The position numbers and the translations under genes were made by a program. The notes beneath the pieces were generated by a model. That model ran no database searches, was not told the DNA's origin, and saw only the letters and a program-made list of their open reading frames with translations. This document shows positions 122 through 29,791 of a stretch of 56,479 nt of DNA, in pieces; position 1 is the first letter of the stretch, and each line of letters begins with the position of its first letter. Source of the stretch: Desulfovibrio sp. (GTDB lineage: Bacteria > Desulfobacterota > Desulfovibrionia > Desulfovibrionales > Desulfovibrionaceae); NCBI GenBank assembly GCA_031276485.1, contig JAISMY010000099.1, positions 1-56,479 on the forward strand. The letters are read 5' to 3'.

Positions 122-3100
122 ATGACCGGCGTAGACGTCAAGAGCCTGCTTGAAAAATGCAATACTTTCTGCACGCGCGCATTGTACGATGCGGCCGGTC
201 TGGCCGTGGGAAGAACGCACTATGAAGTCGCAGCCGAGCATTTTCTGCTCAAGTGCCTGGAAAACAATGATGCGGACCTTGCCCTGCTGATCGGGCGCTA
301 CGGCGTAGACCGCGCAACGGTAATCAGGGACTTCACCCGCGCGCTGGACGCTTTCAGGAGCGGCAATTCCGCACGTCCGGGTTTTTCCCCGCCGCTGATC
401 GAGCTTCTGGAAGCGGCCTGGCTCATTGCTTCGGTGGACCTGAAGCAGAGCGGCATCCGTTCCGGCGCCGTGCTGCTCGCCTATGCCGGGCGACCCGGCT
501 ATTACGCGCAGAGCGCGCAGGCTCCGGCCTTTGCCGAGCTCAACCGCGATGAAGCGAGGCGCAACTTTTTTATGCTCACCGTGGACTCCTGCGAAAACGC
601 GCCGGACGCGGCGGAGAGCGCGGGGGACGAGGCAGGGGAAGCTGCCGCGGCGGGAGGGGCGGCCCAAGGTTTTATCGCCCGATACTGCGATGATTTCACG
701 GCCAAGGCGCGCGCCGGCAAGATAGACGAGGTGTTCGGACGCGATGCGGAACTTCGCAATATCCTGACCATCCTCGCACGGCGGCGCAAAAACAATCCCA
801 TTCTCGTCGGCGAGCCGGGCGTGGGCAAAACCGCGGTCATTGAGGGCCTTGCCAAGCGCATCGCGGAAGGGGACGTGCCGGAGAATCTGCGCGGCGTTTC
901 CCTGCAAGCTCTGGACATGGGGCTTCTTGAGGCCGGCGCGGGCATGAAGGGTGAATTTGAGCGCCGGCTCAAGGGCGTGATTGATGAAATCAAGGGCAGC
1001 GTGAAACCGATCATTTTATTTATCGACGAAGCGCACATGCTTGTGGGCGCGGGCGGACAGGCGGGCGGATCGGACGCGGCCAATCTGCTCAAGCCCGCCC
1101 TGGCGCGCGGCGAACTGCGCACCTGCGCCGCCACTACCTGGAAGGAATACAAAAAATATTTCGAAAAAGACGCCGCCCTGGCGCGCCGTTTCCAGCTCGT
1201 AGACATCGCAGAGCCGGACCTGCGCACCTGCGGGCTGATTTTGCGCGGCTTGTGCGCCGGCTATGAAAGCGCGCATTCGGTGCTCATCCGCGACGATGCC
1301 GTGACCGCCGCCGTGGAAATGTCGCATCGTTTCATTACCGGGCGCTTCCTGCCCGACAAGGCTGTAGACCTCATAGACACCGCCTGCGCCAAGGTTAAAA
1401 TGAGCCTCAGCGTCAAACCCGGTGTTCTTGAAGACACGGAACGCGCCGCGCAGGCGTGCGAACGCGAAGCGGCGGCGCTTGAACGCGACCGGGCCGACGC
1501 TGCTCCCGTGGACGAGGCAAAAATCCGGCGCCTGCGCGCGGAGATGGCTGAACTGCACGCGCGGGCCGCTGCCTTGACCGATCGCTGGAACACGGAACGC
1601 GCAGCGGCGGAAGCCCTCATCAAGGCGCGCGCGGCCTGTCACGCAATCCTCAAGGCGGCGGGCGCCGCCGCTCCAGTTGCGGCCGAGGCCGCCTCCCTGC
1701 AGGGAGAAGCACAGGCGGAACCCGTCGCTCCGGCAACCACGGATATGCCGGCGGCGCAAGCCGCGCCGGATGCGTCCGGGGCGGCACCGGCGGCAGGACC
1801 GGACGATGCTGTCGTGCAGGACGCGGCGGCGCTGAAGGCCGCCCTGGACGACGCGACGGACGCTTTGAAGGCGGCGCAGGGCAGCGACCCCCTGGTCGGC
1901 GTGGAGGTCACTCCCGATGTCGTGGCGCAGGTGGTGTCGGACTGGACGGGTATCCCCGCCGGCAAGGTGGCGCGCGAAGAAGCGGGTCTTATTGCGGACC
2001 TTGACGCGCAGTTGGAGAAGCGCATCAAGGGGCAGGACGAGTCCCTGGAGGCCATAAGCCGGGTCATCAAGGCCGGCAAGGCCGGGCTGGGCGACCCGGA
2101 AGCGCCTCTCGGGGTTTTCCTGCTTGTCGGGCCTTCCGGAGTGGGCAAGACGGAAACCGGTCTGGTTCTTGCGGACCTGCTGTTCGGCAACAAGGAGGAT
2201 GTCATCTCCATCAACCTGAGCGAGTTTCAGGAGCGGCATACGGTTTCCCGCCTTATCGGCTCTCCTCCGGGCTATGTGGGCTACGGCGAGGGGGGGCTGC
2301 TCACGGAGGCTGTGCGCCGCCGGCCTTACAGCGTCATTCTGCTGGATGAGGCGGAAAAGGCGCATCCCGACGTGCTGAATTTGTTTTATCAGGCGTTCGA
2401 CAAGGGCGTGATTACGGACGGGGAAGGCAAAAAAGCCTCTTTTTCCGAAACCGTGATCATACTGACCTCCAACGCGGCATCGGCGACGATTCTGGAAGCT
2501 GCGGGAGGGGAAACGCCCGTAAGCTGGGCGGACCTCACAAAGCTGATACGCCCCGAGCTTGCCGCGCATTTCAAGCCCGCCCTGCTGGCGCGTATGAACA
2601 TAGTGCCCTACAGAGGGCTGGATGCGGCGGCTTTGGAGAGCATTACGCGTATGAAGCTGGAAGCCCTGGGCGAGAAACTCCTGCTTCGCAACAAAATCAC
2701 CCTGCGTTGCTCCGACGCCGTGGTTGCAACGATAGTCGCGCGTTGCGGCGATGTGGATTCCGGCGCGCGCAATATTGAGCATATTCTGGCTGCCAACGTG
2801 CTTCCGCAGCTTGCGCAGAGCATCCTTGAAAAAATGTCCGGCGGGGGTGCCCTGCCGCCCGTATTGGAACTGACGGTAAACGAAAACGGCGGATTTTCCA
2901 TGCTGTTTACAGCGGACGGGGGCGAGGGGGCAGAGGCACCGCAGACTTCCCCGGCGACAGATTCAGGGCAAGGCGCGGACACTCCGGCAGGCGCGGGGCA
3001 CGGTGCGGATGCCCCGGCTGCGGATGCCCCGGCTGCGGATGCTGATGCAGCGGTCACAGACGGGAAGGCGGACTCCCGGCAGGCCCCCGCGGCCCGTTCC

Positions 3101-3591: not shown

Positions 3592-5028
3592 ATGAGTATA
3601 ACGATGCTGCACAAATTGCCTAAAGTGACACATTCTGTACGCACGAATAAATTTTTACAACCTTCGTTAAATTCAATTATTTCTTTTTTCATTACATTTA
3701 TATTCTGTATCCTAATTGTAGCTGTTATAATTATGAATAATAAAAATATTGAAACATTGACTATAGACAAGATTACAGCTGAGAAAATCAATAGTATACA
3801 AGAAACTATTTCCAGATTAGTGTATAATCTATATATGATTTCAGCTATTATCGATCATAACAAAGGAAATATAGATAATTTTGAACGTGTCGCCGCATCA
3901 ATTACCATAGAAAAGCATATCAAAAATGTTATTATTGCACCAGGAGGCGTAGTAGATAAAGTCTATCCCCTGTATGGGAATGGGGCGATAATGGGATTGA
4001 ATTTGTTTGCCGAAGAGGAATACAAGAGCGGAGCAGAGGCGGCAAAAGAAAAAGGCCGAATGGTGCTCGGCGGACCGTTTGTCTCGGCGCAGGGAAACGA
4101 AATCTTGGTCGGGTATTTACCTGTATATGACGATGTGGATGAAAATCAAAACAGGTTCTGGGGACTTGTGTGCATCACACTGAAGTATCATGCTATTTTA
4201 GAAGAATTTAATCTGGAATCGCTTGCGTTATACGGATTGACATACGAATTGTGGAAAATAAATCCCAAGGACGGCAAAAGACAAATTATCGCGAGTAATG
4301 GGCAAGCAGAAACAGATGGTGTTTCTTTTATAGAACGAAATATGCACCTATTTAATGCGGAATGGCATTTACGTATCAGTACTGATAAAAAATGGTATGA
4401 ATATCATGAAAATTTATTGATGATACTTGTAAGCGTACTTGTAAGTTTTTTAATAGCTTTTATTACGCAAAAAAGTTACGAGTTGCGTATAGTAAGTAAA
4501 GAACTTGAACGTCTTGCACATACCGATACATTGACAGGAACCTATAACAGACATTATTTTACAGAATTTGTATCTACACAAATTGAGAGGATAAAACGAA
4601 CGAAGGAAAAGGGATTTATCGTTTTATTTGACTTGGATTTTTTCAAAAAGGTCAATGATACCTACGGTCATACTGCGGGCGACGAAGTTTTGAAGGTCAC
4701 GGCATCGAGAATTAAATTGCAAATTCGCCCTTACGATGTGTTTGCACGCTATGGCGGTGAAGAATTTATTTTGTTTATTCAGCAGATTGATAAAGAAGGC
4801 GTATGTAATCTTGTGGAGCGTTGCCGGAAGTGCCTTGAGAGTACGCCTGTCGAGTACGAAGGGCACAGCATAATTGTTACAGCAAGTTTCGGTATAGCAG
4901 AGGTAATATCGGATGAGGGAATGAATATTGCGGTAACTCAGGCCGATGTAGCGTTGTATCGCGCAAAAAAAGAAGGGCGAAACAGGTATATACTGCATGA
5001 AACGCGTACCGTTGCAGATTTGATGTAG
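3592..5028 (+). CDS. Membrane diguanylate cyclase with extracytoplasmic sensor domain
   Basis: The product should make c-di-GMP from two GTP. A membrane segment at residues 28-48 is followed by an extracytoplasmic domain of about 225 residues resembling CHASE-type sensors, then a second membrane segment at 275-292. The GGDEF domain starts with DTLTGTYNR and carries GGEEF at 388-392. An inhibitory RxxD site (Arg379 to Asp382) lies five residues before GGEEF, so product inhibition is expected. The second ATG, four codons in, is an equal start candidate; neither has a clear Shine-Dalgarno. The gene is strongly AT-rich beside its neighbours and sits between repeat clusters, which suggests horizontal acquisition. 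Confidence 0.85.
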
Positions 5029-15599: not shown

Positions 15600-16385
15600 T
15601 CATATCCAGAGTTTTAAGTATTTACCTGGAGAAATAAATCGAATAAGTCCAATATCTCTAAGGCGTTGAAGAACTTGTCTAATCTTTGCAGCTCTATTAT
15701 GGTTGTTAGGATATTGATTTTTCAATTTATCAGCAAGATATGATACAGTTTCTGAAGAAAAAAATAATTTATCAATCGAATTAAGTTCAATAAACACATT
15801 TTTTTGCCAACCAGTAAGATTGTCAAGAATAGCTTTCTTATCATTATCATATATATCATCCACCATATGTAAGTTTATATTTGGAAACTTAAGAAATTGC
15901 ATTTTTGGTATTGATTTAAGGATATTCTTTATACGATTAACAGAATATATAGAAATTTTCCCTGTCAATTCATCAGTAGTTAATAATTTATAATCTTCCA
16001 AAGCTTTATTAATTAAGCATTCATTATTTGTTATAATACCATATTCAAAATTACGCTTGAGTCCTGATTTTGTAAGATTAGCTGAAGTTATTATACATGT
16101 ACGTCTATCAAAAATATAAAATTTAGCATGTAAATCAGATCTATTATATACGGTATTACGCAGGACAAGTTTTTTAATTGCGGATATATCTGATGCCTGA
16201 TTATAAAAATTTTTCAAGTTAATATTTGTAATAAGCTTTATATTAACTTCATCTTTTTTTACTAATAGAATATCATCTACAATTTCTTCTTTGATGAAGG
16301 GTGAACATAAATAAATCTCTGCATTTGCAGACTGACATAAGGATAAAAATTTTTTGTGGAGTGGCGTATTTATTATTTCTATCAT
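15600..16385 (-). CDS. PLD-family nuclease with DpnI-like winged-helix tail
   Basis: The 261-residue protein has one phospholipase-D/nuclease HKD motif: His86, Lys88 and Asp93 in HAKFYIFD, followed by TSAN ending at Asn103. A single motif implies an active site built by dimerisation, as in Nuc or BfiI. Residues 191-261 resemble the winged helix at the end of DpnI and Dam-replacing proteins (KIRQVLQRLRDIGLIRF, then GKYLKL). The combination suggests a sequence-reading DNA cutter: a restriction enzyme or an orphan defence nuclease. No methyltransferase gene lies next to it. The gene is very AT-rich and sits by an IS remnant, so it was probably acquired. The ribosome site is weak. Confidence 0.7.
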   Translation of the reverse strand: MIEIINTPLHKKFLSLCQSANAEIYLCSPFIKEEIVDDILLVKKDEVNIKLITNINLKNFYNQASDISAIKKLVLRNTVYNRSDLHAKFYIFDRRTCIITSANLTKSGLKRNFEYGIITNNECLINKALEDYKLLTTDELTGKISIYSVNRIKNILKSIPKMQFLKFPNINLHMVDDIYDNDKKAILDNLTGWQKNVFIELNSIDKLFFSSETVSYLADKLKNQYPNNHNRAAKIRQVLQRLRDIGLIRFISPGKYLKLWI

Positions 16386-24574: not shown

Positions 24575-27022
24575 ATGTTCAGACGCATTTTCGTTTATTG
24601 CCTTATCGCGGGCACGACGTTGGGCATCGCCGGCGCCGGCGCCGCGCTCGCCTTGTATCTGTGGGCGGCCCACGATCTGGTCAGCATCACCAGGGTCGGC
24701 GACTACCGTCCCGCGCAGGTGACCACCGTGTACGCCCGCGACAAGAGCATCATGGGCTACCTGTTCCGGGAAAAACGCTTCCCGGTCAACCTGGAGGCCA
24801 TGCCGCCCCACCTGCCCAAAGCCTTTCTGGCCGCCGAAGACGCGCGTTTCTTCGAGCATGTGGGGGTGGATTTGCAGGCCATACTCCGGGCTTTCATCAA
24901 CAACATGCTTGAAAACGAGCGGCTCCAGGGCGGAAGCACCATTACCCAGCAGCTTGTGAAACGCCTGCTCCTGACCCCGGAAAAGAGCTTTGAGCGCAAA
25001 ATCAAGGAAGCCCTTCTGGCCTACCGCCTGGAAGACTATCTGACGAAAGAACAGATCCTGTATCTGTATCTGAACCATATTTACCTCGGCAACAGTTCCT
25101 ACGGCGTGGAAGCCGCGGCCCGCACCTACTTCGCCAAACACGTCGGCGAACTTACCCTTGCCGAGTCGGCCGTTCTGGCCGGGTTGCCCAAGGCGCCCTC
25201 CACGAACAATCCCTATACAAAGCCGGAAAACACCAGGGAACGGCAACTCTGGGTTCTCAACCGCATGCGCCAGGTCGGCTTTATTACCGACGCCGAGTAC
25301 GATGCGGCCGCTGCGCAGCCGCTGGCGTACAAACCGATGCCCGACCCTTCCTGGACCGTGGGCTCATGGTATCTGGAAGAAGTGCGCCGGCAGCTCATCG
25401 CCTTTTTCGATGAGGCCAACGTCCGGCGGCTGGGCATTGCCCTGGACGTTTACGGAGAAGAAGCCGTCTACGAAGGAGGGCTGCATGTGTATACCGCCAT
25501 GGACCCCGCGCATCAGCGCGCCGCCGAGCAGGCTTTGCGCGCCGGGCTGCACGAGGCCGACCACCGCCGGGGCTGGCGCGGTCCTCTGGAGCAACCGCAG
25601 GGCGCGGAGCGGGACAAGTTTCTGAAAAACAGCGCCTTTACCCCCGCGGCCCTGGACAACAGCGGCTGGGTCAAGGCGCTGGTGACCGCCGTCGGCAAAA
25701 ACGGCGCGGAGGTCGCCCTGGGCAACGGCTACCGGGGGTACATCTCCGTCCGGACCATGGGCTGGTGCCGCACGCCCAACCCCAGGATCGCCGCGGCCGG
25801 CGCCGCGAAAATACAGGATGCGGCCAGGGTGCTGAATCCCGGCGACCTTGTTTTCGTTTCCGCTTACGGCGCGACGGGCACAGCCAATCCTGTGACGGAG
25901 CCGGCCGACCCGGACAACAGAAAAAATCCCGTCCCGGCCTACGTCCCGGGCGATATAAGCCCGGATACGGTCATACCGCTCTGCCTGGAACAGGTCCCGG
26001 ACCTGCAGGGCGCGCTGGCGTCCATCGAAGTGGATACCGGCGACCTGGTAGCCGTTGCCGGCGGTTATCATTTTTCGCCGGAAAGCCAGTTCAACAGGGC
26101 GACCCAGGCCCACCGCCAGCCGGGGTCCTCGTTCAAGCCCATTGTCTACTCGGCCGCTCTGGACCAGGGCTTCACGCCCGGCACCATCGTGTACGACACG
26201 CCCTTTGTCCTGCCGGACCGTTATACCAAGCGGATCTGGACCCCCGGCAACGCGGACGGGAAATTTCTCGGTCCCATTCCCGTAAGCCGGGCCATCGCGG
26301 CGTCGCGCAACGTCAGCACCGTGCGCGTGGCCCAGCAGATAGGCATGGAAGCGGTGGTGCAGCGGGCCCGCGACCTCGGCATTCAGGGCGACATTCCGGC
26401 TGTTCTGGCGGTCAGCCTGGGCAGCTACGAGGCCACGCCCCAGACCATGGCCGAGGCCTACTCCGCCTTCGCCAACGCGGGCAAGCGCATCAAGCCGCGC
26501 ATCATCACGGCTGTCGAGAACTGCTGGCGGGAACCCCTGGTGACTTTTGAGGCCGACGTCCGGGAAGCTGTAACCCCGCAGAACGCATACGTCATGGATT
26601 ACCTGCTCAAGGGCGTGATCACCGGGGGAACGGGAAGCGCGGCCCGCGTGCTGGGCAGGCCCATGGGCGGCAAAACCGGCACGTCCAACGACGAGCGCGA
26701 CGCATGGTTCATCGGCTTTACACCGCACCTTGTGACCAGCGTCTGGATCGGCTACGACAACAACATGCCGATGGGGCGCTCCGAATACGGCGGCAAAGCC
26801 GCCCTGCCCGTCTTCATCAAGTACCGCAGGGAAGTGGAAGCTTTCTACCCGCCGGATGATTTTCCAGTGCCTCCGGGCATAGTCTGGTCCTCGGGCCGGG
26901 AGGAAGCGGACGGGCAGAAAGGCGTGGGATTCCCCATGATCAGCGGCATCCCTCCCCGCTATGATTCCGCCGGCGGCGACGACTTGGGAGAACAGCTCAT
27001 GAAAGAGGAAATGTTTTTTTGA
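24575..27022 (+). CDS. mrcA: Bifunctional penicillin-binding protein 1A
   Basis: A class A PBP that polymerises and cross-links peptidoglycan at the outer face of the inner membrane. One membrane anchor spans residues 8-32. The glycosyltransferase domain has catalytic Glu88 in AEDARFFEH, and GGSTITQQLVKRLLL and RKIKEALLAYRLE. The transpeptidase has SSFK with nucleophile Ser518, SRN at 577-579 and KTG at 700-702. An OB-like insertion lies between them. The 815-residue length is typical. It follows the YkgJ gene by 20 bp. The AT-rich FkbM gene begins 49 bp after the stop, the boundary of a foreign insert. Confidence 0.9.
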   Translation: MFRRIFVYCLIAGTTLGIAGAGAALALYLWAAHDLVSITRVGDYRPAQVTTVYARDKSIMGYLFREKRFPVNLEAMPPHLPKAFLAAEDARFFEHVGVDLQAILRAFINNMLENERLQGGSTITQQLVKRLLLTPEKSFERKIKEALLAYRLEDYLTKEQILYLYLNHIYLGNSSYGVEAAARTYFAKHVGELTLAESAVLAGLPKAPSTNNPYTKPENTRERQLWVLNRMRQVGFITDAEYDAAAAQPLAYKPMPDPSWTVGSWYLEEVRRQLIAFFDEANVRRLGIALDVYGEEAVYEGGLHVYTAMDPAHQRAAEQALRAGLHEADHRRGWRGPLEQPQGAERDKFLKNSAFTPAALDNSGWVKALVTAVGKNGAEVALGNGYRGYISVRTMGWCRTPNPRIAAAGAAKIQDAARVLNPGDLVFVSAYGATGTANPVTEPADPDNRKNPVPAYVPGDISPDTVIPLCLEQVPDLQGALASIEVDTGDLVAVAGGYHFSPESQFNRATQAHRQPGSSFKPIVYSAALDQGFTPGTIVYDTPFVLPDRYTKRIWTPGNADGKFLGPIPVSRAIAASRNVSTVRVAQQIGMEAVVQRARDLGIQGDIPAVLAVSLGSYEATPQTMAEAYSAFANAGKRIKPRIITAVENCWREPLVTFEADVREAVTPQNAYVMDYLLKGVITGGTGSAARVLGRPMGGKTGTSNDERDAWFIGFTPHLVTSVWIGYDNNMPMGRSEYGGKAALPVFIKYRREVEAFYPPDDFPVPPGIVWSSGREEADGQKGVGFPMISGIPPRYDSAGGDDLGEQLMKEEMFF

Positions 27023-27058
27023 CGGATTATTTTTATTATATCAGTAAATCCATTATAT

Positions 27059-27064
27059 AGGAGG
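27059..27064 (+). promoter_or_regulatory. Consensus ribosome site of the phase-variable FkbM gene
   Basis: AGGAGG, seven bases before ATG 27072. It fixes the real start of the FkbM gene upstream of the G tract rather than at the first ATG of the long open frame (27397). Confidence 0.8.
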
Positions 27065-27071
27065 TTCTCTC

Positions 27072-28308
27072 ATGATAAATTATAAGGGGGGGGGGGGGGG
27101 GTATATACACTCAAACACTCCATAATATCCTCAGGGTAAGTGATTTTATATCAAAGTATCCTTGGGATAAATATATAAAAGAATATGATTTCTTTTTCTA
27201 TCTCAATAATCTTGATAAATTTGACAATGCAAGAGAATTTTTTTATGGTCACGATGAAACATCACTAGCTATATTTGACTATGTAATACAATATAGAGCA
27301 TGCACTTCTTTTTTTGGATTTCCTCTTCCTTTCGACATAGAAAATGCGCCGTTCACAAAAGCAGAATGGCAGCAACTTACAGAACGTGCGGAATCTATGA
27401 TTGATGGCTTTGCAGAGAATGATGTTATTTCGGATAGAATTGATACTTGGTTGCTGGAAAGTTATTCGTTACACAATATATGTGAAGTTGAAGAAGGTGA
27501 TATTGTTCTTGATTGCGGAACTTACAGCGGCAATACAACATTATATTTCGCAAATAAAGCAGGCAACACAGGCCATGTTTACGGATTTGAGGCTCACCCG
27601 AAAACATTTAAAAATCTTCGCAAAAATGTTGCACATCTTCAAAATTGTACGCCAATACGGGCGGCTGTAGCCACAGCCACAGGGATGGTTTGCTTTGACG
27701 AGAATGCGACTACAGCAAGCAGCATTCAAAAAAAAGGTATCCAAGTGCCGGCATTGAGTTTAAATGATTTTATAAATAGTCACAAAATTATAAATGTTGA
27801 TTTCATCAAGATGGATATTGAGGGTTGTGAAGCGGATGCTCTGCGCGGCGCAGACCGCATAATAAGTATGTTTCATCCTAAAATGGCCATATCTGTTTAT
27901 CATAAACTTGAAGATTTATATTTCTTACCACAACTTATACATAGCATTAACCGTGACTATATTTTCTATTTACGTCATTATTCAGACAATAAATACGAAA
28001 CAGTTCTTTTTTGTGTTCCAACCGAAACCGCTCACTCCGAGGATCTTTGTATAGCTGAAACCTTTCAGAAATCAGATATCTACAAACTCACTACATTACT
28101 ACATGCTATTTATACCGGATATCATGATATCTATTCCCCATGGATCTCAGAATACAAAAAACTATTGCGTGAATATCAAAATGCATCTGAATATTTACAT
28201 AAATCAATCAAGATATCGGAATGTTATGCAGAAAAAATAAAACAAATAGAAGCAGAAAATCATAGATTAAAATCGATTGTGACAAAATTTAGTGCGCAGA
28301 TAAAATAA
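27072..28308 (+). CDS. Phase-variable FkbM-family methyltransferase, currently out of frame
   Basis: Translation from ATG 27072 reads Met-Ile-Asn-Tyr-Lys, then Gly codons, and with 16 G's runs into a stop at 27123. The frame that starts at 27100 is open without a stop through the methyltransferase to 28308. With 15 or 18 G's the product would be one protein of about 411 residues. It has an unrecognised N-terminal region of about 110 residues, then an FkbM SAM domain (VLDCGTYSGNTTLYF, GFEAHPKTF, VDFIKMDIEGCEADAL) and a C-terminal coiled coil. FkbM enzymes O-methylate sugars and other small groups, so a surface-glycan target is likely. The gene is very AT-rich and looks imported. Confidence 0.75.
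27086..27101 (+). repeat. Poly-G tract of 16 bases in the FkbM gene
   Basis: Sixteen consecutive G's lie four codons after the start, in otherwise AT-rich DNA. Such tracts change length by slipped-strand replication. The count needed for the long frame is a multiple of three; the sequenced allele is one over. Homopolymer sequencing error could also alter the count. Confidence 0.9.
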
Positions 28309-28385
28309 CAAAGTAGAAACGCTCATAGCAGAGGTTAGGTGAGTGTTCAGAAACGTGGATACTAATTTAACAAAAGAAGACAGCA

Positions 28386-28452
28386 TGAGCCTTCAGGCCC
28401 ATGTGTCTTGCGCTTGGGTTGGGTCGAGCTGACCGTCCTGAAGGCCGGTGCT
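28386..28452 (+). promoter_or_regulatory. Structured leader upstream of hisS
   Basis: GCCTTCAGG (28389-28397) pairs with CCTGAAGGC (28437-28445), and GAGC / GCTC can extend the stem past a bulge. The structure ends about 22 bases before the hisS start. It could be an attenuator or another leader control of histidyl-tRNA synthetase. No T-box or histidine-codon leader was recognised. Confidence 0.35.
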
Positions 28453-28474
28453 CAAACCATAAAAGGACGCTGTG

Positions 28475-29791
28475 ATGAATACCCCGCGGACGGTCAAGGG
28501 ATTTTACGACATTTTCCACCCGCAGAGCGCCCTGTACACCTTTATGGAAAACACGGCGCGCCGCGTGTTCGGCGCTTACGGTTTTGAGGAACTGCGCCTG
28601 CCGGTGCTGGAGTTCACGGAACTGTTCCGGCGCGGCATAGGCGGGGATACGGACATCGTGCAAAAGGAGATGTACACCTTCGCGGACCGCAAGGGGCGCT
28701 CCCTGACCCTGCGCCCGGAGGCCACGGCCGGCGTTGTGCGCGCCTATCTCGAAAGCGGCAGGCACGGCCGCGACGCCGTGTGCAGGCTGTTCGTCTGCGG
28801 CCCCATGTTCCGCTATGAACGCCCGCAGGCCGGGAGGACACGGCAGTTTCACCAGCTCAACTGTGAATGCCTGGGCGCCGCCAACGCCCAGGCCGATGCG
28901 GAAATCCTGCTCATGCTCGACGCCTTTCTGCGCGAACTGGGCCTGACCGGCCTGCGCACCGAACTGAATACCCTGGGCTGCCGCGCATGCCGTCCCGGCT
29001 ACATGGAAAAACTCTCCGCTTTCCTGCGCGCCCTGAACCCGGAAACACTCTGTCCCGACTGCCGCAGACGCCTGGAAAGCAACCCCCTGCGCATTCTGGA
29101 CTGCAAGGTGCCTGCCTGCAGAGAACAGACCGCGCAAGTGCCCGCCGTGCGCGACCATGTCTGTGCGGAATGCGCCGCGCATTTTGAAACCGTCCTCGGC
29201 ATCCTGGGCAGGGAAAAGGTGAGCGTGGTTCTCAACCCGCGTCTGGTGCGCGGATTGGACTACTATATGCGCACAACCTTTGAAATCGTATCCGAAGCCA
29301 TAGGCGCCCAGGGATCCGTCGCCGGAGGCGGGCGCTACGACGGCCTGACCACCCTGCTCGGCGGCCCGGCCGTTCCCGGCATAGGCTTTGCCTGCGGCAT
29401 GGAGCGCCTGGCCCTGGCCCTCGACGGGCAGGGGAAAGGCCGTTTCGCTCCCCGGCCGGATTTCTATTTCGCCGTGCTGGACCGCGAATGCGCGGACAAG
29501 GCGCTGCACGCCGCGCAAATCCTGCGCGCGGCCGCGTTGTCCGGCACCGTGGACTTCAGGGACGGCAAACTCGGCGCCAAACTGCGCCGGGCCGCGCAGG
29601 CCGACGCGGAATACTGCCTCATCTTCGGCGCGGCCGAGTTCGCCGAAGACAAGGTGATCGTCAAAAACATGGACGACGGCGCCCAGGTCTCCCTTCCCCT
29701 GTCCACCCTCGGAGACTGGGCGGAGATACGCTTTGAAAACAAAAAGGAAGCATCCCGCAAGGGCCGCTTGCCGCTCTTTCAGGCCACATAA
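28475..29791 (+). CDS. hisS: Histidyl-tRNA synthetase
   Basis: A class II synthetase that charges tRNA-His. Motif 2 is seen as GPMFRYERPQAGRTRQFHQ, the histidine-A block as RGLDYYMRTTFE and the second as AGGGRYDGL. Motif 3 follows as GFACGMERLAL. The C-terminal anticodon domain is present. The 438-residue length favours HisS over the shorter HisZ paralogue. A run of cysteines at residues 168-228 (CRAC, CPDC, CAEC) forms an unusual insertion with possible zinc sites. AAAAGGA lies before the ATG at 28475, and a GTG just upstream is the alternative. Confidence 0.9.
   Translation: MNTPRTVKGFYDIFHPQSALYTFMENTARRVFGAYGFEELRLPVLEFTELFRRGIGGDTDIVQKEMYTFADRKGRSLTLRPEATAGVVRAYLESGRHGRDAVCRLFVCGPMFRYERPQAGRTRQFHQLNCECLGAANAQADAEILLMLDAFLRELGLTGLRTELNTLGCRACRPGYMEKLSAFLRALNPETLCPDCRRRLESNPLRILDCKVPACREQTAQVPAVRDHVCAECAAHFETVLGILGREKVSVVLNPRLVRGLDYYMRTTFEIVSEAIGAQGSVAGGGRYDGLTTLLGGPAVPGIGFACGMERLALALDGQGKGRFAPRPDFYFAVLDRECADKALHAAQILRAAALSGTVDFRDGKLGAKLRRAAQADAEYCLIFGAAEFAEDKVIVKNMDDGAQVSLPLSTLGDWAEIRFENKKEASRKGRLPLFQAT

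Follow-up and report, generated by a model that had tools for sequence, protein, structure and literature searches.

Arrangement of the poly-G locus

An FkbM-family methyltransferase gene of a gut-type, sulfate-reducing Desulfovibrio sp. is very probably a translational contingency (phase-variable) locus, in which a poly-G tract between the start codon and the gene body sets the reading frame. The gene lies on the forward strand of the DNA analysed here (the window, 56,479 nucleotides), which is one whole contig of an assembly with 116 contigs and a completeness of 86.9. Direct reading placed an AGGAGG ribosome-binding site at 27059-27064, with a spacing of 7 nt to an ATG at 27072. This start codon is followed by a short leader (ATA AAT TAT AAG) and, opening with the G of AAG, by a run of exactly 16 G (27086-27101) and then TATATACACTC. 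The homopolymer, which lies in the 5' end of the coding region and has 16 G as its consensus length in the assembly, is the proposed switch. At this length, the leader reading frame (27072-27125) continues for seven codons past the run to its first stop, a TAA at 27123-27125, and ATG 27072 is out of register with the methyltransferase frame (27100-28308). An earlier, sequence-only reading of this DNA had described the AGGAGG, ATG 27072, the four codons, the G16 and the stop at 27123, all of which were confirmed. Its arithmetic, by which the full protein needs a tract length that is a multiple of three, is right, and the assembled (consensus) length indeed breaks the register, as had been claimed for this allele.

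The tract is the only run of more than 8 G or C in the window. Markov models (orders 2, 3 and 5) whose fit excluded the tract predicted between 5e-6 and 1.4e-5 runs of at least 16 G per window, and the count of G9 words was matched in 1 of 100 dinucleotide shuffles. The length of the G16 tract is far beyond chance.

The methyltransferase frame and its start codon

The different frame noted previously, open from 27100 for 403 codons, comprises 402 residues and a stop codon (27100-28308, + strand), with no further stop or frameshift in its 402 codons. Its translation matched profiles above the curated cut-offs in both Pfam (PF05050, E=8e-22, 78.6 bits, cut-off 22.7) and NCBIfam (TIGR01444, E=5e-24, 85.3 bits, cut-off 37.7), and the motifs DCGTYSGNT and KMDIEG were intact in a multiple alignment. 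The best match by sequence profile was PDB 2py6 (E 2.8e-26), an FkbM methyltransferase from Methylobacillus flagellatus, which was also the first Foldseek match of the AlphaFold2 model (E 5.6e-14). The two proteins are thus alike in profile and fold, but they share only 21% identity, with a TM of 0.47-0.50. The best matches among congeners were 33-38% identical, and the closest homologue, in the genome G124 (L063 178-1300, G124:C174), is a truncated fragment with 68% identity. The sequences beside this homologue resemble parts of an IS200/IS605-type element.

The first ATG, GTG or TTG of the methyltransferase frame is the ATG at 27397, corresponding to residue 100. CTG and ATT are also absent from the frame between 27100 and 27397, and just seven ATA or ATC codons occur there. 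Being the first ATG in frame, 27397 might be the real start, in which case the tract would be irrelevant. This explanation is extremely improbable. No ribosome-binding site precedes ATG 27397 (GCAACTTACAGAACGTGCGGAATCT), and the residues ahead of it are conserved. Specifically, local matches to homologues start at post-tract residues 5 (L066, 44% identity), 14 (L065, 41%), 28 (L064, 45%) and 40 (L067, 44%), and TQTLHNIL of the window's frame aligned with SKTLHNIL of L066 in the multiple alignment. Compared with the G124 homologue, dN/dS was 0.13 before ATG 27397 (codons 31-99) and 0.23 from there on (codons 100-230), each value being an average over both lineages that cannot date a loss. Additionally, the AlphaFold2 model (mean pLDDT 81.7, from 17 sequences) contains helices at residues 28-36, 38-49, 53-72 and 87-98, which a start at residue 100 would cut off; pLDDT ranged from 67 to 95 across the ten-residue blocks of residues 31-100 and was 57-59 in the first 30 residues.

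Because of these homologue matches, the low dN/dS and the modelled helices, the frame upstream of ATG 27397 is judged to be real protein under purifying selection. The same three lines of evidence agree with the sequence-only reading, which had seen sensible sequence well before this ATG and had named a native start at 27397 as a finding that would refute its proposal; conservation and selection argue against such a start. Since the coding sequence upstream of 27397 is conserved and no other good start exists, the only good start of the enzyme is ATG 27072, with translation passing through the tract, and the full enzyme can therefore come only from this codon. Judging from the register of the assembled sequence, the full enzyme would not be made at 16 G.

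In the mechanism that we favour, the ribosome would start at ATG 27072 and continue across the G's into the methyltransferase. The number of G's would change by slipped-strand mispairing in replication, and only one length class in three would join the start codon to the enzyme. The consensus of 16 G would be the OFF allele, whose leader stops at 27123, and would be one slippage step from ON. We infer that the tract at 27086-27101 varies in length and that the change is reversible. FkbM-family enzymes O-methylate a hydroxyl group of a sugar or a macrolide. The enzyme would most likely O-methylate a sugar of a surface polysaccharide or glycoprotein, and switching would give a mixed population with methylated and unmethylated surfaces. 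The family, together with the company that such tracts keep, points to a surface glycan as the probable target.

Genomic setting and probable import of the gene

The gene is located between a pbp1A-type gene encoding a penicillin-binding protein (24575-27022) and hisS (28472-29791). Alignment of the DNA to relatives breaks off at 27020-27024, where the pbp gene finishes, and starts again at 28452-28490, ahead of hisS, which leaves an AT-rich stretch (27024-28455) without counterpart in the relatives compared. The G+C content of the fkbM gene is 34.6% vs 59.5% for the window. Both sides of the tract are AT-rich (29% G+C in the 49 bases before the start and 35% in the gene downstream), a composition that a single imported unit would be expected to have. 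No fkbM was found beyond the pbp gene in nine congeners that have 954-1,500 bases there; two more loci end within 2 bases of the match. Neither the adjacency of pbp and hisS nor the order pbp-fkbM-hisS was seen in the relatives examined, and the insertion point therefore cannot be checked against an intact neighbour pair. The gene had earlier been called AT-rich and imported. The first description holds by its G+C content, and the second is supported by this composition together with the lack of fkbM at the same spot in the nine congeners; the import was probably recent.

An imported gene may also be dead, that is, a pseudogene in which drift has brought the tract to a length that breaks the frame. 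Two observations fit this explanation, namely the consensus being out of register and the truncation of the 68% identical relative in G124. However, the 402 codons contain no other stop or frameshift, the two motifs DCGTYSGNT and KMDIEG are intact, and both parts of the protein show purifying selection, with the reservation that dN/dS, as a mean of the two lineages, does not tell when a loss took place. Moreover, the sole lesion is at a tract of a hypermutable kind. We consider a dead import quite improbable, and a live switch remains our preferred reading.

Loss of mismatch repair was considered as a cause and rejected: the window's genome has both mutS and mutL, which means that mismatch repair is not simply absent. 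Campylobacter and Helicobacter are not known to keep these two genes, and their presence here counts against a contingency locus.

Two other AT-rich segments were observed in the window. One, at 15600-16385 (- strand), is an island of 29-33% G+C encoding a PLD-like nuclease with a DpnI_C-type HTH domain, similar to a restriction enzyme. The other, at 3592-5028 (+ strand), is a CHASE-GGDEF diguanylate cyclase gene of 36-40% G+C.

Poly-G tracts in the genome, genus and family

The window's genome contains 13 runs of at least 10 G or C. Two of these concern the 3' ends of genes: a G12 lies near that of a family 2 glycosyltransferase (GT2) gene, and a G10 at that of a gene for a TylF-type methyltransferase. 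In the genus, 139 runs of at least 10 were counted in 15 genomes, and 110 were found by script in the stretches examined, a set that leaves out runs near contig starts, most of those in G009 and a few in G007. Interior tracts, defined as those more than 300 bases from a contig end, made up 70 of the 110.

The other 40 runs lie within 300 bases of a contig end, where sequencing artefacts may collect. This distribution bears on the possibility that the tract in the window is itself an assembly or sequencing artefact, either a poly-G error of two-colour chemistry or a misjoin at the tract, and the order pbp-fkbM-hisS, absent from the relatives examined, could be read in the same way. Nevertheless, the tract lies 27 kb inside a 56-kb contig, and a read-end error would be expected to place G's and C's on opposite sides rather than a single G run that links two sequences. 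Both flanks are AT-rich (29% and 35% G+C) in a window of 59%, a Shine-Dalgarno sequence and an ATG are correctly placed before the tract, and homology starts just after it. An artefact is therefore very unlikely, and we treat the G16 as a genuine part of the gene.

The 16 interior tracts of at least 12 in the genus, from which a junk-like cluster (G009:C33) had been dropped beforehand, were compared with a Pfam scan that covered the longer frames touching a tract and had G000:C83 outside its range. Six of the 16, counting the window's own, lie within or next to genes for glycans or the outer membrane, a proportion that has no matched gene-class control. These genes encode FkbM proteins (in the window and in G002), GT61 (G004), GT2, the plug of a TonB receptor (G005) and a TPP enzyme/NeuB (G002). 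Five tracts touch or adjoin genes of a housekeeping kind, for apolipoprotein N-acyltransferase, a FecR-domain protein, YbbR, an SRP54-type GTPase and FliL. For four more, the frames scanned matched no Pfam family, and the remaining tract was outside the scan. Thus, poly-G in the genus is not confined to surface genes.

Specifically, the C12 of G002 lies at the 3' end of its FkbM gene, and a G15 is located towards the 3' side within the GT61 gene of G004. In G005, a C20 (coding strand; L222 678-697, G005:C149) directly follows the signal-peptide-like start of a TonB-dependent receptor gene, whose register is broken in the assembly. A G10 lies in register inside a further FkbM-like gene of G012 (28% match to the window's protein); the part of this gene before the G10 had no Pfam match on its own. 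The second G002 tract is located between the TPP-enzyme gene and neuB, and neuB was rejected as a case of a 5' tract, as a GTG preceded by GAGGA follows the run. When the flanks of the 70 interior tracts were compared all against all, no tract was common to one gene in two species of the genus, so that none of the relatives is known to carry this switch; the matches obtained were short ones away from the tracts, a close pair in one G010 contig and the G009:C33 cluster.

Several minor observations concern the same genomes. A G12 in G004 (around L210 1499; G004:C153 19857) splits an apolipoprotein N-acyltransferase gene into two frames, which may be a real frame break in this envelope gene or a homopolymer assembly error. 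In G005, a ten-base G/C run (L221 1501-1510; G005:C48 1942-1951) is located inside a mutS match (442-3090) that contains no stop, and a slippery tract in this mismatch-repair gene could be a mutator switch. No mutS1 match over the curated cut-off was found in G012, an assembly of 93% completeness with many poly-G runs, or in G014. Such a match is present in the window's genome and in each of the eight other congeners tested.

Across the family, runs of G12 or more occurred in 141 of 288 genomes and 33 of 44 genera. Many of these runs are at contig ends or in junk-like clusters, and the count was set aside as proof of switching for this reason. In the one-contig genome G268, for example, G runs of up to 164 with short T-containing spacers (L268; G268:C1 2091922-2092388) represent a repeat or assembly junk. 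Beside an fkbM gene in another family genome, a glycosyltransferase-like gene (L069 519-1286, - strand) encodes a protein ending in RERERERE, which suggests another simple-sequence repeat.

Comparison with known poly-G systems

G-tract phase variation is textbook knowledge for Campylobacter, Helicobacter and Neisseria. Passages of the PhasomeIt study list several poly-G SAM-methyltransferases in Campylobacter (PMC6321876), and parts of the H. canadensis genome report describe (G)11 and (G)13 methyltransferases with length ranges, as well as 3'-end tracts that give C-terminal switching (PMC2823697). As far as these passages go, the contingency genes of both groups resemble the window's locus in carrying G tracts of 7-16 inside or before methyltransferase and other genes (PMC6321876, PMC2823697). 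The window differs in belonging to Desulfovibrionaceae, in its 59% G+C, in the presence of mutS and mutL and in having its tract in an AT-rich gene.

The FkbM genes of Helicobacter aurati (L121; PF05050 E 4e-23) and H. didelphidarum (L123; E 8e-24) each have a G12 upstream of the domain, with a broken register. Over the methyltransferase domain, their products are 39% and 36% identical to the window's protein, respectively. A long frame of at least 60 codons lies ahead of the tract in both species, whereas the leader in the window has five codons.

Tract lengths in Lawsonia intracellularis

Within Desulfovibrionaceae, the plasmids of Lawsonia intracellularis PHE/MN1-00 have poly-G/C tracts in four genes, three for SAM-dependent methyltransferases and one for an autotransporter. 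Five runs of at least 12 were seen in Lawsonia, and four of them, all except a chromosomal one, were compared among strains PHE/MN1-00, N343 and PPE-GX01-2022 (plasmids L315-L317, L286/L318/L319 and L287/L320/L321). The run lengths, in this order of strains, were 13/13/14, 12/11/13, 13/13/13 and 12/10/9. Three of the four tracts, in two methyltransferase genes and the autotransporter gene, therefore differ among strains, and one has a single length in all three. In the 12/11/13 tract, which belongs to a methyltransferase gene, the bases beside the run are equal in all three strains. In the 12/10/9 tract of the autotransporter gene, they are equal in PHE/MN1-00 and N343, and PPE-GX01-2022 differs. 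The 13/13/14 difference is no pure gain in run length, PPE-GX01-2022 having lost an interrupting base. At all four tracts, the flanks were 100% identical between PHE/MN1-00 and N343 over 2 x 1,000 bases, and they were 99.6-100% identical to those of PPE-GX01-2022. The three differing genes are annotated as long in some strains and as short or split in others.

These comparisons indicate that, within Desulfovibrionaceae, methyltransferase genes have G tracts whose length changes; homopolymer sequencing error could contribute to the differences. The sequence-only reading had invoked known poly-G switching as an analogue, and the analogy gains from length variation in the same family and from FkbM tracts in two Helicobacter species. 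Lawsonia resembles the window in its family and in having tracts (9-14 in length) in SAM-methyltransferase genes, besides the autotransporter gene. Two of its methyltransferase tracts lie in a cluster on a plasmid, together with genes for glycosyltransferase, GHMP kinase and radical SAM proteins. Unlike the window's enzyme, the Lawsonia methyltransferases match Pfam Methyltransf_12/25/31 and their tracts are internal; the DNA around them is AT-rich (27-38% G+C) vs the 59% G+C of the window.

Slippage at a long G run can take place at several levels. If it occurred in transcription (or at the ribosome) on the G16, a fraction of the product would be in register at a fixed DNA length, and the gene would always be partly on. 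Slippage-dependent pilus expression in Bifidobacterium breve lends some plausibility to this alternative, although the slippage described there, in the portions of the report that bear on it, occurs in replication (PMC9187656). According to the same portions, expression of the pilus in this gut commensal depends on replication slippage at an intragenic G tract, a kind of tract that the window's gene shares, and the genes affected are sortase pilus genes, which sets that system apart (PMC9187656). The Lawsonia differences are differences in DNA length between strains with identical flanks and need DNA slippage. We thus regard transcript slippage as an unlikely sole explanation, and DNA and transcript slippage may act together; slippage in replication remains the mechanism that we prefer for the window's tract.

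Novelty and implications

Among the matches listed from open-licence literature (titles and beginnings of abstracts), none reported G-tract phase variation in sulfate reducers, and the sole match listed for Desulfovibrio with homopolymeric phase variation concerns Campylobacter genomes. A general survey has no mention of Desulf- in its main text (PMC2831843), and no paper that combines FkbM, phase variation and poly-G was found in the open-licence literature. The mechanism is already known, as are FkbM genes with such tracts in deposited Helicobacter genomes. Among the matches listed, the occurrence in sulfate reducers and the polymorphism between Lawsonia strains are new.

We lean slightly towards a broader view, in which Desulfovibrionaceae, from the Desulfovibrio relatives in insect and animal guts to Lawsonia, have a so far unreported poly-G 'phasome', by which methyltransferases, glycosyltransferases and outer-membrane proteins are switched, and in which the present locus is an imported methyltransferase that brought its switch into a genome with MutS and MutL. 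From their isolate codes, we take the congeners of the window's genome to be of termite origin. Sulfate reducers are a common group in guts, including those of insects. If the tracts are hypervariable, heterogeneity of surface methylation could be tested from existing reads of gut Desulfovibrionaceae and would be relevant to encounters with phages and hosts. Annotation may also call such genes truncated: in the window, an ORF finder starts fkbM at 27397, with a quarter of the protein missing.
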